Shown here piece after piece: positions 24,775 through 28,172 of a stretch of DNA of 46,524 nucleotides (position 1 is the first letter of the stretch; each line of letters opens with the position of its first letter). This stretch comes from Candidatus Methanocorpusculum faecipullorum (GTDB taxonomy: Archaea > Halobacteriota > Methanomicrobia > Methanomicrobiales > Methanocorpusculaceae): assembly GCA_018883755.1 (NCBI GenBank), contig JAHLFR010000005.1, positions 1-46,524 of the forward strand. The letters run 5' to 3'. The position numbers and the translations under genes are program-made. The notes under the pieces were generated by a model that did not search any database, was not told where the DNA came from, and saw nothing but the letters and a program-made list of their open reading frames with translations.

Positions 24775-25467
24775 TCACATAAGGTCTTGGTTTTCATGAG
24801 TGTCATTTCCGAACGCCTCAAGCACACTCAGGAATCCGTCGCACGGTCCGATGATGAGATGATCCAGCAGTCTGATCCCGAGAATTTCTCCTGCTTCCTG
24901 AATTGTTCTGGTCATGAGGATGTCCCGCGTACTTGGTGTGAGGTTTCCTGACGGATGGTTGTGGACGAGGATAATTGCTGCAGCCCGATCGGTTACTGCA
25001 TCCGCAAACACTTCGCGGGGGTGAATCTGACTCTGGTTCACGAGACCTCTTGTCACCACCCGGATATTGAGAATCTCATGAGCCCCCGACAGTGTTGCTG
25101 CTATGACGTTTTCCTGCTGATCATACCGATACTGACTGACAAACGGAAGAAGATCCTCGGCACACCGTATCTTTGCGGACTTTCTGTCCGGCGGGGGAAA
25201 ACGCCTGGCAAGTTCTAATGCTGCAAGAATCTGACAGGCCTTTGCCGGTCCCATTCCGTCAACAGCGGCTACGTCCTGTATGGATGTTGTATAGGTGTGT
25301 TCCATCAGGATGTCTGCAACAGCTTTGCCGATCTTGAGTGCGTCGTTTTTTACGGTTCCGCGTCCGATGATCGCCGCAATCAGTTCCGCGAGTGTCAGGC
25401 TTTGCGGCCCGTTTGCGATCAGCTTTTCCCGCGGTCGATCGATCTCTGCTGTATTTTTCAGACTCAT
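24775..25467 (-). CDS. radC: RadC/JAMM domain protein
   Basis: A 230-residue RadC family protein. An N-terminal UPF0758 helix-hairpin-helix region (RPREKLIANGPQSLTLAELIAAIIGRG, VDGMGPAKACQILAALELARR) precedes a JAMM metalloprotease-like domain with the metal motif VHNHPSGNLTPSTRD. The name comes from an old repair assignment that has not held up; function is open. ATG 25467 (MSLKNTAEIDRPREKL) is preferred; a TTG three codons earlier is possible. It stands just before purA in the same direction, with a 28-base gap. Confidence 0.9.
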   Translation of the reverse strand: MSLKNTAEIDRPREKLIANGPQSLTLAELIAAIIGRGTVKNDALKIGKAVADILMEHTYTTSIQDVAAVDGMGPAKACQILAALELARRFPPPDRKSAKIRCAEDLLPFVSQYRYDQQENVIAATLSGAHEILNIRVVTRGLVNQSQIHPREVFADAVTDRAAAIILVHNHPSGNLTPSTRDILMTRTIQEAGEILGIRLLDHLIIGPCDGFLSVLEAFGNDTHENQDLM

Positions 25468-25611
25468 GCCGATCAATGGAGTTATCGGGAAAGAAATTAT
25501 ATTAATGTGTCGCCGATCTCGGCAGTATTTTTTTCAAGAACTTTTGGAATTTTTCCCTCGACGGGTACCCATACCAAACCTTTATTCCCCAACTTCTGCA
25601 AATAATATTAC

Positions 25612-26112
25612 ATGGACACTAAGACATGCATTGCAGATGCTTTTGCCGGTGAGTCACAGGCAAACCGTAAGTACAAATCCTTCTCCGAAGCAGCAGCAGA
25701 CGAGGGATACGACCACGTTGCAAAGCTTTTCCGCGCAACTTCCGCAGCAGAGGAGATCCACGCACGCCGTCTTCTCCGTGTCGGCGGTTACATCGGAACG
25801 ACCGTTGCAAACCTTGAAGCCGGTATGGAAGGCGAACTGCACGAGACCAACGAGATGTACCCCTCCTTCATCAAAGTTGCCGAGGCAGAAGGCCGTCAGG
25901 ATGCAATCATTACCTTTGAGCACGCCATGAAGGCAGAGGCTGTTCACGCAGATCTCTACAAACAGGCACTTGAAGCAGTCAAAGCAGGTCGCGACTATGA
26001 GGTTAAGACCGTGTACCTCTGCCCGGTTTGCGGAAACATTGAGATCAACAAGACCTCTGACCGCTGCCCGATCTGCGGTATCCCCGGCGCATCCTTCAAG
26101 ATCGTCGAGTAA
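25612..26112 (+). CDS. Rubrerythrin
   Basis: A 166-residue peroxide-scavenging enzyme of anaerobes. A four-helix ferritin-like domain holds the diiron ligands (EXXH-type segments such as TSAAEEIHARR and FEHAMKAEAVHADLY). A C-terminal rubredoxin-like centre has CPVCGNIEI and CPICGIPG. It reduces H2O2 with electrons from a rubredoxin or reductase. It lies upstream of the Grx-TrxR fusion, with 92 bases between. Its own AT-rich promoter region precedes the ATG (AAATAATATTAC). Confidence 0.95.
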   Translation: MDTKTCIADAFAGESQANRKYKSFSEAAADEGYDHVAKLFRATSAAEEIHARRLLRVGGYIGTTVANLEAGMEGELHETNEMYPSFIKVAEAEGRQDAIITFEHAMKAEAVHADLYKQALEAVKAGRDYEVKTVYLCPVCGNIEINKTSDRCPICGIPGASFKIVE

Positions 26113-26204
26113 TCCGATTCTCCATTTTTCACTTTTTTCCACATATCTCTCCAATCCGTGCCCCTATCCTATCATTTTAATTATCACGCACCCTATGTTG
26201 GAGT

Positions 26205-27371
26205 ATGACTGTTCCTGAGATTATGGTATACTCCACCAAACAGTGTATGTACTGTAATAATCTGAAGGCATGGCTTGCACAGAACAATATCCCCTATCAC
26301 GCGATCGATGTGGGTGAGGATCCTGTTGCCGCCCGAGAGATGATTGATCTTACCGGCCAGCGTGGGGTACCGGTGATCGTTATTGACGGTGAGGTGATCG
26401 TGGGATTCGATCGCCCGAGAATTGAAGCACTGCTCAACATTGACAAAGGCAAAGATATCCCTGCTGATCACGAACTGATCATTATCGGTTCTGGTGCCGC
26501 AGGACTTTCGGCCGCACTGTACTCCGGGAGAAAAGGTCTTGAGACACTGGTTATCGGAGGTGTTCGTGGCGGAATGATTACACGAACTGCCGATATTGAG
26601 AACTATCCCGGTTTTTACCGGATATCGGGAGAGTCTCTGATGCGTCTGTTTGCAGATCAGGCAGAGGATGCTGGGGCTGTTATTTTGGATGACGTGGTTA
26701 CGGATTTATCTGTACGTGACGGAACGTTCGTTGTTGAAACACTCTCTGGTCGTGTGTTCACTGCAAAATCCGTGATTGCCGCATCCGGCAGAACTCCGAA
26801 GCTCAGCGGCGTACCGGGTGAGGCGGAGCTGTTTGGAAAAGGAGTTTCCATCTGTACTACCTGTGACGGGCCGCTTTTCAAAGGAAAACGTGTCGCGGTG
26901 TACGGGGGTGGAAACACCGCCGCGGAGATGGCTCTTGAGATGAGTAACATCGCAGCGGTCGTGTATCTGATCTCCCGCAGTCCCCTGAAGGCGGATTTGG
27001 TCACCATTGAACGTCTTAAAGAGAAGAAGAATGTGGTGATTATGACCGGAGTTGTAATCACCGGTCTTCATGGTGAGGGAGTACTTACCGCCGTCGAGAC
27101 TGCACCGCGTCAGGATCTGGCAAACACAACCCGTCTTCCAATCGATGGTCTCTTCCTCGGACTCGGTCTTACGCCGAACTCTGCGGTCTTCTCGGGTGTT
27201 GTCGGAATGAACAGCGTTGGTGAGATCTTTGTTGATGAAAACTGCAGAACAGATGTCCCAGGGCTGTTTGCCGCAGGGGATGTCACCTCTGTTAAGGGTA
27301 AACAGCTTGGTATTGCAGTGGGAGACGGTATCAAAGCATCGCTTGCCGCCTATGAGTATCTGAGAAAGTAG
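26205..27371 (+). CDS. Glutaredoxin-thioredoxin reductase fusion
   Basis: 388 residues. Residues 1-82 are a glutaredoxin/NrdH-like domain with active site CMYC and the cis-proline loop GVPVIVIDG. Residues 87-388 are a thioredoxin reductase: FAD site LIIIGSGAAGLSAALYSGRKG, redox pair CTTCDG, second Rossmann motif YGGGNTAAEMALEM and FAD site LFAAGDVTSVKGKQLGIAVGDG. The HRRxxxR motif that grips NADPH is missing: the position reads ISRSPLKADLVTIERL. An F420- or NADH-dependent enzyme is therefore possible. The fused glutaredoxin is a likely direct electron acceptor. Gene order behind rubrerythrin suggests peroxide and disulfide defence. Initiation at ATG 26205 has GGAG too close; ATG 26223 is an alternative. 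Confidence 0.92.
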   Translation: MTVPEIMVYSTKQCMYCNNLKAWLAQNNIPYHAIDVGEDPVAAREMIDLTGQRGVPVIVIDGEVIVGFDRPRIEALLNIDKGKDIPADHELIIIGSGAAGLSAALYSGRKGLETLVIGGVRGGMITRTADIENYPGFYRISGESLMRLFADQAEDAGAVILDDVVTDLSVRDGTFVVETLSGRVFTAKSVIAASGRTPKLSGVPGEAELFGKGVSICTTCDGPLFKGKRVAVYGGGNTAAEMALEMSNIAAVVYLISRSPLKADLVTIERLKEKKNVVIMTGVVITGLHGEGVLTAVETAPRQDLANTTRLPIDGLFLGLGLTPNSAVFSGVVGMNSVGEIFVDENCRTDVPGLFAAGDVTSVKGKQLGIAVGDGIKASLAAYEYLRK

Positions 27372-27443: not shown

Positions 27444-28172
27444 ATGCCACCACGTCGCACCCGGTTTAATCAGGATCAGTATGCGTTGCTCCGCCGCGGT
27501 TCTGAGTTGATGGATTTCACGGAGTGGAACCGCTGGTATGCAAACTATCTTGCAGATAACCTCTTTCTCCGCAGTACCGACGCCTATGGTGCACATCTTG
27601 CAGGAGCGGATCTTGCGTACTGGTATCTGGAAGGTGCCGATCTTCGGTTTGCCCAGCTGCAGAATGCCGATCTCTCCTACTCTTATCTGAAACATGCCAA
27701 TCTGGCAAATGCAAATCTTGCCGGAACAAATCTCTGGCGGGCATTCCTTGCAGGTGCTGAACTCTCGGGAGCAAACCCTGACGCTGCAGTGTATGATCCT
27801 GCGGGAAGAATCAAGTTTGATCCAGCACAGGAATCCCGTCTCCGTAAAGCTGCGGAGTCCGGAACCATTGCGGCATGGAATGCGTGGTACCGGACGGAGC
27901 TTTCCAAAGAAGACAGCGATGTGCGGCTGTACGGGGCATATCTTGAGGAAGCATCACTGCGCAATCTGGATCTCTCGGGTGCAGTACTGTGTTATGCACA
28001 TCTGGAAGGAGCTGATCTCCGGCACGTGAATCTTTCCGGGGCGAATTTGTCCCATGTACATCTGGAAGGTGCCGATCTCTGGCAGGCAGATCTTACGAAC
28101 GCAGATCTCCGGTATGCAGAGCTTGGCGGCGCAAATCTTGCAGGTGCAAAAAAGGATCACGCACTGTTTTAA
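27444..28172 (+). CDS. Pentapeptide-repeat protein with internal duplication
   Basis: A 242-residue protein made of two arrays of A(D/N)Lxx pentapeptides (about residues 48-112 and 165-235), which fold as right-handed quadrilateral beta helices. Each array is preceded by a related lead: FNQDQ..LLRRG..EWNRWY (8-32) and FDPAQ..RLRKA..AWNAWY (125-149), an offset of 117 residues, so the gene arose by tandem duplication. No signal peptide or catalytic domain is seen. Its stop overlaps that of the convergent pilin-like gene. Function unknown; some family members mimic DNA, but this one has no hallmark of that. Confidence 0.88.
   Translation: MPPRRTRFNQDQYALLRRGSELMDFTEWNRWYANYLADNLFLRSTDAYGAHLAGADLAYWYLEGADLRFAQLQNADLSYSYLKHANLANANLAGTNLWRAFLAGAELSGANPDAAVYDPAGRIKFDPAQESRLRKAAESGTIAAWNAWYRTELSKEDSDVRLYGAYLEEASLRNLDLSGAVLCYAHLEGADLRHVNLSGANLSHVHLEGADLWQADLTNADLRYAELGGANLAGAKKDHALF

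Follow-up and report, generated by a model that had tools for sequence, protein, structure and literature searches.

In thioredoxin reductases (TrxRs) and their relatives a GxGxxA nucleotide loop goes with use of NADPH and a GxGxxG loop with NADH; AhpF, which carries an N-terminal redoxin part and a TrxR core in one chain, is NADH specific. The Cp34-Cp9-Cp20 system of Clostridium pasteurianum comprises a small YruB/Cp9-type glutaredoxin (Grx) and a TrxR-like flavoprotein, encoded by separate genes with a peroxiredoxin gene adjoining; it is reported to be NADH dependent, with Cp9/YruB acting between the NADH-TrxR and peroxiredoxin (PMC3720550). At the HRRxxxR motif, which binds the 2'-phosphate, three arginines are reported to form seven salt bridges in EcTrxR, and one lysine was judged insufficient in the case of DvTRi (PMC5627308); in the M. 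mazei enzyme (MmNTR) a lysine occurs naturally at the third position (HRRDHLK; PMC6262447). Loss of the motif alone decides nothing, since TaTR, reported to use NADH, and MjTR, reported to use F420, both lack it (PMC6262447). Enzymes that use F420 or ferredoxin are described as having a less conserved pyrophosphate site (PMC5627308).

The window analysed here, a stretch of 46,524 nucleotides from Candidatus Methanocorpusculum faecipullorum (Methanomicrobiales), encodes a Grx-TrxR fusion (Table 1). The fusion resembles AhpF in its chain organization, but AhpF has 521 aa and an NADH-type pocket (GGGNSG, EFAPEMKAD). By contrast with the C. pasteurianum system, the locus is fused, is adjoined by a rubrerythrin gene and has what appears to be an NADPH-type pocket. 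Canonical NADPH TrxRs, e.g. MmNTR, share with the fusion the FAD loop, the CxxC site and GxGxxA, but have HRRxxxR where the fusion has xRSxx[RK]. The M. jannaschii enzyme (DFTR) is likewise a methanogen TrxR without HRRxxxR (PMC6262447), set apart in that it is reported from Methanococcales (PMC8498797) and that the accounts consulted mention no fused Grx. A literature search of openly licensed papers found no description of a Grx-TrxR fusion in Methanomicrobiales.

Table 1. Positions in the window of the fusion gene, its domains and motifs, and neighboring genes
Feature	Position	Strand	Details
RadC-family gene, divergent from rubrerythrin	24775..25476	-	Pfam; seen in 47/112 loci, often retained
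Rubrerythrin, upstream partner gene	25612..26112	+	PF02915; 92 bp gap to fusion
Grx-TrxR fusion ORF	26205..27371	+	388 aa / 388 codons, ATG start; match in 139/150 order genomes
Glutaredoxin domain, YruB/Cp9-like	26220..26399	+	residues 6-65; Pfam PF00462, E 3.5e-18
Grx active site CMYC	26244..26255	+	residues 14-17; both Cys in 113/114 copies
FAD/NAD(P) two-domain TrxR core	26472..27323	+	residues 90-373; Pyr_redox_2 PF07992, E 5.9e-39
FAD loop GSGAAG	26487..26504	+	residues 95-100; three Gly invariant, 109/109
TrxR redox site CTTC	26853..26864	+	residues 217-220; both Cys in 114/114
Pyridine-nucleotide loop GGGNTA, GxGxxA type	26904..26921	+	residues 234-239; GGG 109/109, N237 114/114, A239 112/114
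SRSPLKAD	26973..26996	+	residues 257-264; Arg258, Ser259 and Lys262 as putative 2'-phosphate clamp, directly preceded by beta2 (252-257 in the AF2 model)

Architecture of the fusion protein

A preliminary description of this DNA had proposed that one chain carries both Grx and TrxR, and this was confirmed by Pfam, with translation showing CMYC, CTTCDG (residues 217-222) and SRSPLKAD as it had read them. The Grx domain scores 66 bits against PF00462 (gathering score 22.9) and has the CxxC site; its best Grx family is TIGR02196 (YruB/Cp9 glutaredoxin), at 81.2 bits below the cut-off of 88.55. The top NCBIfam match to the fusion is TIGR01292 (thioredoxin reductase; 277.8 bits, below the cut-off of 343.45), followed by the AhpF profile (250.4 bits against a cut-off of 502.9), the alignment with which starts at profile position 162. 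Two hallmarks of TrxRs are present, i.e. a CxxC site in the pyridine-nucleotide domain (CTTC) and the FAD GxGxxG loop (GSGAAG); the third, HRRxxxR, is replaced by SRSPLKAD.

The AF2 model of the fusion (pLDDT 90, pTM 0.81) matches TrxR and AhpF structures, in Foldseek and VIA-align comparisons covering mainly residues 84-388, the Grx fold being assigned from Pfam and the model only. It comes closer to the flavin-reducing state (1f6m, 3.0 A; 5usx_B, 2.2 A), in which the CxxC site meets a redoxin, than to the flavin-oxidizing state (5mjk, 6.9 A). Chance or a pseudogene was ruled out by dN/dS values of 0.10-0.13 between the window genome (G000) and three close orthologues, and by conservation throughout the order. 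The window copy has CMYC where all five window-type orthologues have CPHC, and forms the longest terminal branch within the window-type clade.

Distribution

Matches at E 1e-20 or better, mostly full length, were found in 139 of 150 Methanomicrobiales genomes, representing 33 of 35 genera and including 106 of the 108 genomes of good quality. In a phylum sample 381 of 392 genomes match, many of the matches outside the order being TrxR only or spanning the stop between two genes. The fusion recurs order-wide and is not peculiar to this genome. One single-copy fusion, in a closed genome of the genus (G042; L019 1480-2691), has an in-frame TAG in place of Gln52, a Grx-domain residue conserved in the other copies, for which a broken gene, an error or recoding are possible readings.

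In Methanocella-type loci (L162, L164) and in f16 loci (L159, L166) a separate Grx ORF of 77-92 aa lies directly before that for TrxR, an arrangement checked with Pfam in L159 and L162. Against TIGR02196 the stand-alone Grx of L162 reaches 88.7 bits, and the loop of the Methanocella-type loci reads VRSTLKAD or VRSTIKAD. The side-by-side arrangement of Grx and TrxR genes in other families makes it plausible, by analogy, that the TrxR core of the fusion hands electrons over to its own Grx. Four Haloarchaea-like fusions (L154-L157; taxon inferred) likewise have an N-terminal Grx on TrxR (L154 by Pfam) but, unlike the Methanomicrobiales protein, keep an HRRE motif; the two that were placed in the tree both fall outside the clade of the order, and they probably represent a separate fusion event. 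Deep branching among the relatives is weakly supported in this quick tree, and no nearest outside sister family is claimed.

The nucleotide-binding pocket

The pocket was aligned for 114 fusions, one per genome, each being either the sole fusion of its genome or the first of two; genomes with matches number 141 in all (the 139 of the order survey and two more from the phylum sample). Arg258 and Asp264 are invariant in these copies and residue 262 is always basic (Arg in 69, Lys in 45); Ser259 is present in 102, and GxGxxA (A239) is kept in 112. No copy has an acidic residue at position 257, where beta2 ends (Val 99, Ser 7, Ala 7, Ile 1). Compared with HRRxxxR, the window loop thus retains two of three basic positions (Arg258, Lys262), has one Ser and is one residue shorter, so that one of the three canonical arginines is gone; these differences count against an NADPH reading. 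MAFFT places a gap at the beta2 end; which of the two arginines of HRR Arg258 corresponds to depends on that placement. In the AF2 model beta2 ends at residue 257, with Arg258 directly next, which would put it at the classical 2'-phosphate place.

The earlier statement that the enzyme lacks the NADPH motif therefore stands as regards HRRxxxR itself, but not as regards the pocket, where Arg258, Arg/Lys262 and, in nearly all copies, GxGxxA are retained. The same description had named replacement arginines elsewhere in the pocket as telling against its proposal, and conserved replacement basic residues are what was found. The idea that loss of HRR equals loss of nucleotide binding was rejected for the window copy on the basis of conservation in the 114 copies.

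How the loop types relate to the pyrophosphate loop was examined in 103 script-sorted rows, namely the window copy, two reference sequences and 100 relatives from outside the order, all of which share ancestry. An acid at beta2 occurs in 28 rows, AhpF and TaTR included, all with GxGxxG, though many of these are mutually related and the 28 are not independent. The HRR class also numbers 28 rows, 27 with GxGxxA and one with T, and all 19 of the xRSxx[RK] class have GxGxxA; a further 28 rows have other loop types, which the loop classes leave unexplained. The xRSxx[RK] class includes TrxRs from Selenomonadaceae (L040, L042, L045, L066, L067 and others) with HRSxxRAD loops, e.g. HRSEFRAD, and since they branch elsewhere in the tree the short xRSxx[RK] loop may have arisen twice. 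The Fno of a same-genus genome has SREASK, with Arg/Lys spacing as in the fusion loop. The NRTxxR/K clamp motif is that of shikimate dehydrogenases; a literature search for this clamp found nothing.

These patterns bear on the possibility of an NADH-dependent, AhpF-like reductase. AhpF chains are the best sequence matches to the fusion among solved structures (E 1e-61), TaTR, also without HRRxxxR, is reported to use NADH (PMC6262447), and so is the TrxR partner of Cp9 (PMC3720550). Nonetheless, every acid-type relative combines GxGxxG with the beta2-end acid, whereas the fusion has GGGNTA and Ser257, and dependence on NADH appears unlikely.

The preliminary description had suggested that F420H2 could be the donor, as in the Methanocaldococcus DFTR; in such a reading F420H2 would reduce FAD directly, with the altered loop binding F420 or nothing. 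F420H2 is plentiful in methanogens, and the pair of invariant basic residues might accommodate a different anion, e.g. the F420 phosphate; like the M. jannaschii enzyme (PMC6262447), the fusion has no HRRxxxR. By contrast, the near-invariant GGGN+A pyrophosphate loop is at odds with the less conserved site reported for MjDFTR (PMC5627308), and DFTR is described as being from Methanococcales (PMC8498797) and as limited to deeply rooted methanogens (PMC5627308). With this loop and two invariant basic residues, the proposal of F420H2 as donor did not gain support, and we judge it improbable for the window copy. An enzyme independent of pyridine nucleotides, either a ferredoxin-fed FFTR or TRi-like, is a highly improbable alternative: anaerobe TrxR relatives of these kinds without the HRR motif are reported to exist (PMC5627308, PMC9025218), but FFTRs are described as having lost the GxGxxA/G motif (PMC9025218) and TRi as having GEGxxAxN and TQ/NGK (PMC5627308), while the nucleotide loop of the fusion is intact.

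On sequence grounds the conserved features of the pocket point to NADPH, and the donor is probably this cofactor, bound via a modified loop, and not F420. The order-wide loop would then be an NADPH-type clamp different from HRRxxxR, in a fusion on which no paper from Methanomicrobiales was found.

A paralogue without the proposed clamp

G000 encodes a second fusion (L002, G000:C40:37121-38326; protein at L002 1498-2715, minus strand), 56% identical to the first, and five more genomes of the genus likewise have both, making six species. The loop of the second copy is SATPLDAD, with A258, T259 and D262, in every one of these genomes. Comparison of three second copies with the columns at least 90% conserved shows departures at L224, L255, R258, S259 and an insertion site only. 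These three are under strong purifying selection, with dN/dS of about 0.03 as against 0.07-0.13 in the window type. A formate/nitrite transporter gene (Pfam) precedes the fusion in 3/3 second-copy loci examined and in six single-copy loci.

In the tree the genus clade (support 100) splits into the window type (6 rows, 99) and another group (97), which consists of the second copies together with single copies of other species. Clamp residues persist in these single copies, with loops such as VRSKLKAD, so loss of the clamp is most simply seen as one event, in the lineage that keeps both copies. In four genomes (G030, G042, G054, G065; L135, L136, L137, L138) the single fusion is found solely in the formate-transporter context.

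It may be that the two fusions have split their donors, the rubrerythrin-linked window copy being fed by NADPH and serving as reductase in a peroxide-defence unit with rubrerythrin, and the clamp-lost, formate-transporter copy using F420H2 or NADH. This proposal is tentative and on present evidence rather doubtful; if true, one cell would hold a natural cofactor-switched pair. The F420 claim, unsupported for the window copy, is better asked of this paralogue.

Linkage to rubrerythrin

Gene order was examined at 112 loci, of which 92 come from as many genomes outside the genus; the rest belong to the genus and are 17 first or only copies and 3 second copies. Among the 92, rubrerythrin precedes the fusion in the same orientation in 71 (by family or genus group 7/7, 16/16, 1/6, 7/10, 19/19 and 21/34). 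No different orientation was seen in the sequence examined, and at 13 of the 21 loci without the gene the upstream sequence extended just 1.2-1.5 kb. Within the genus it is linked in 6/6 window-type loci, and was seen in 0/11 other loci and 0/3 second copies. Exactly one rubrerythrin (47% identity or more) was found in 55 of 61 genomes of the order; of the others, three genus-mates (G030, G042, G054) have two copies, located elsewhere in the genome, two have weak matches only and one has none. Since rubrerythrin is single copy in most genomes, it is very unlikely that the link arose by chance.

A PF01594 permease gene lies between rubrerythrin and fusion in this family, including the genus orthologues, and is absent from the window (26113-26204). 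Downstream, window-type loci within the genus have a conserved gene for a pentapeptide-repeat protein (27444-28172 in the window). A sigma-70 and terminator scan, the scope of which excludes archaeal promoters, gave no more than did shuffled sequences, and the one TATA-like pattern used had no match in the window.

The earlier suggestion that electrons might pass on to the upstream rubrerythrin is upheld as to conserved gene linkage, which is not in itself support for electron transfer. In its strongest form, the fusion would be the missing rubrerythrin donor: NADPH would reduce FAD, and FAD in turn the rubredoxin-like domain of rubrerythrin, whether or not Grx takes part. As a proposal about the client it is compatible with any electron donor. 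The same-strand linkage and the single-copy state of rubrerythrin favor it. However, linkage may only mean co-regulation, T-runs in the 92-bp gap make a joint transcript uncertain, and stand-alone rubredoxins are encoded in all 25 genus genomes, such that a direct donor role seems a poor prospect. Thiol reduction of rubrerythrin via an extra cysteine was also considered and rejected: among 77 rows no cysteine is conserved beyond the four of rubredoxin type, position 6 being Cys in just 6, and a thiol route is not evident.

Discussion

Profile searches for redox genes in 25 genomes of the genus, 12 of them complete, provide the cellular context. Matches to PF00462 occur solely inside fusions or their fragments (21/25 genomes; 12/12 complete). 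Thioredoxin and a ferredoxin-thioredoxin-reductase-type subunit are encoded in 25/25, an AhpC-type peroxiredoxin in 19/25 (11/12 complete) and the Fno family in 23/25 (12/12 complete); Fno was not found in G000 itself, which is 80% complete. A search of G000 yielded no TrxR-type reductase besides its two fusions, a third match being of the glutathione-reductase/lipoamide-dehydrogenase type.

Architecture, conservation and gene linkage were read from the DNA itself, and from them we infer the donor (NADPH), the electron path and the client. The fusion would act as a self-contained disulfide reductase, AhpF-like or like the Cp34-Cp9 pair, with a single Grx fused N-terminally. F420H2 would be converted to NADPH by Fno; NADPH would bind the second Rossmann domain, where Arg258, Ser259 and Lys262 would hold the 2'-phosphate, and hydride would pass to FAD, with electrons then moving to Cys217/Cys220 and on to Cys14/Cys17 of the enzyme's own Grx. 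The reduced Grx domain would in turn act on protein disulfides, a peroxiredoxin being the likely client; no peroxiredoxin gene adjoins the fusion among the window neighbors scanned with Pfam, and in G030 (98% complete) there was no match to PF00578. Fusion and rubrerythrin together would form an oxidative-defence unit. Taken as a whole, an NADPH-fed, self-contained disulfide reductase in such a unit is the best explanation of the evidence and, in our assessment, a reasonably likely one.

How the thiol systems of Methanomicrobiales methanogens are fed seems, from the literature search, not to have been studied so far. If the order-wide xRSxx[RK] loop binds NADPH, it would be a second NADPH clamp for the TrxR family, and it warns against equating 'no HRR' with 'no NADPH'. 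A possible natural cofactor switch could be examined directly in the two paralogues, while linkage to rubrerythrin singles out the fusion as a concrete candidate for the reductant of a methanogen peroxidase.
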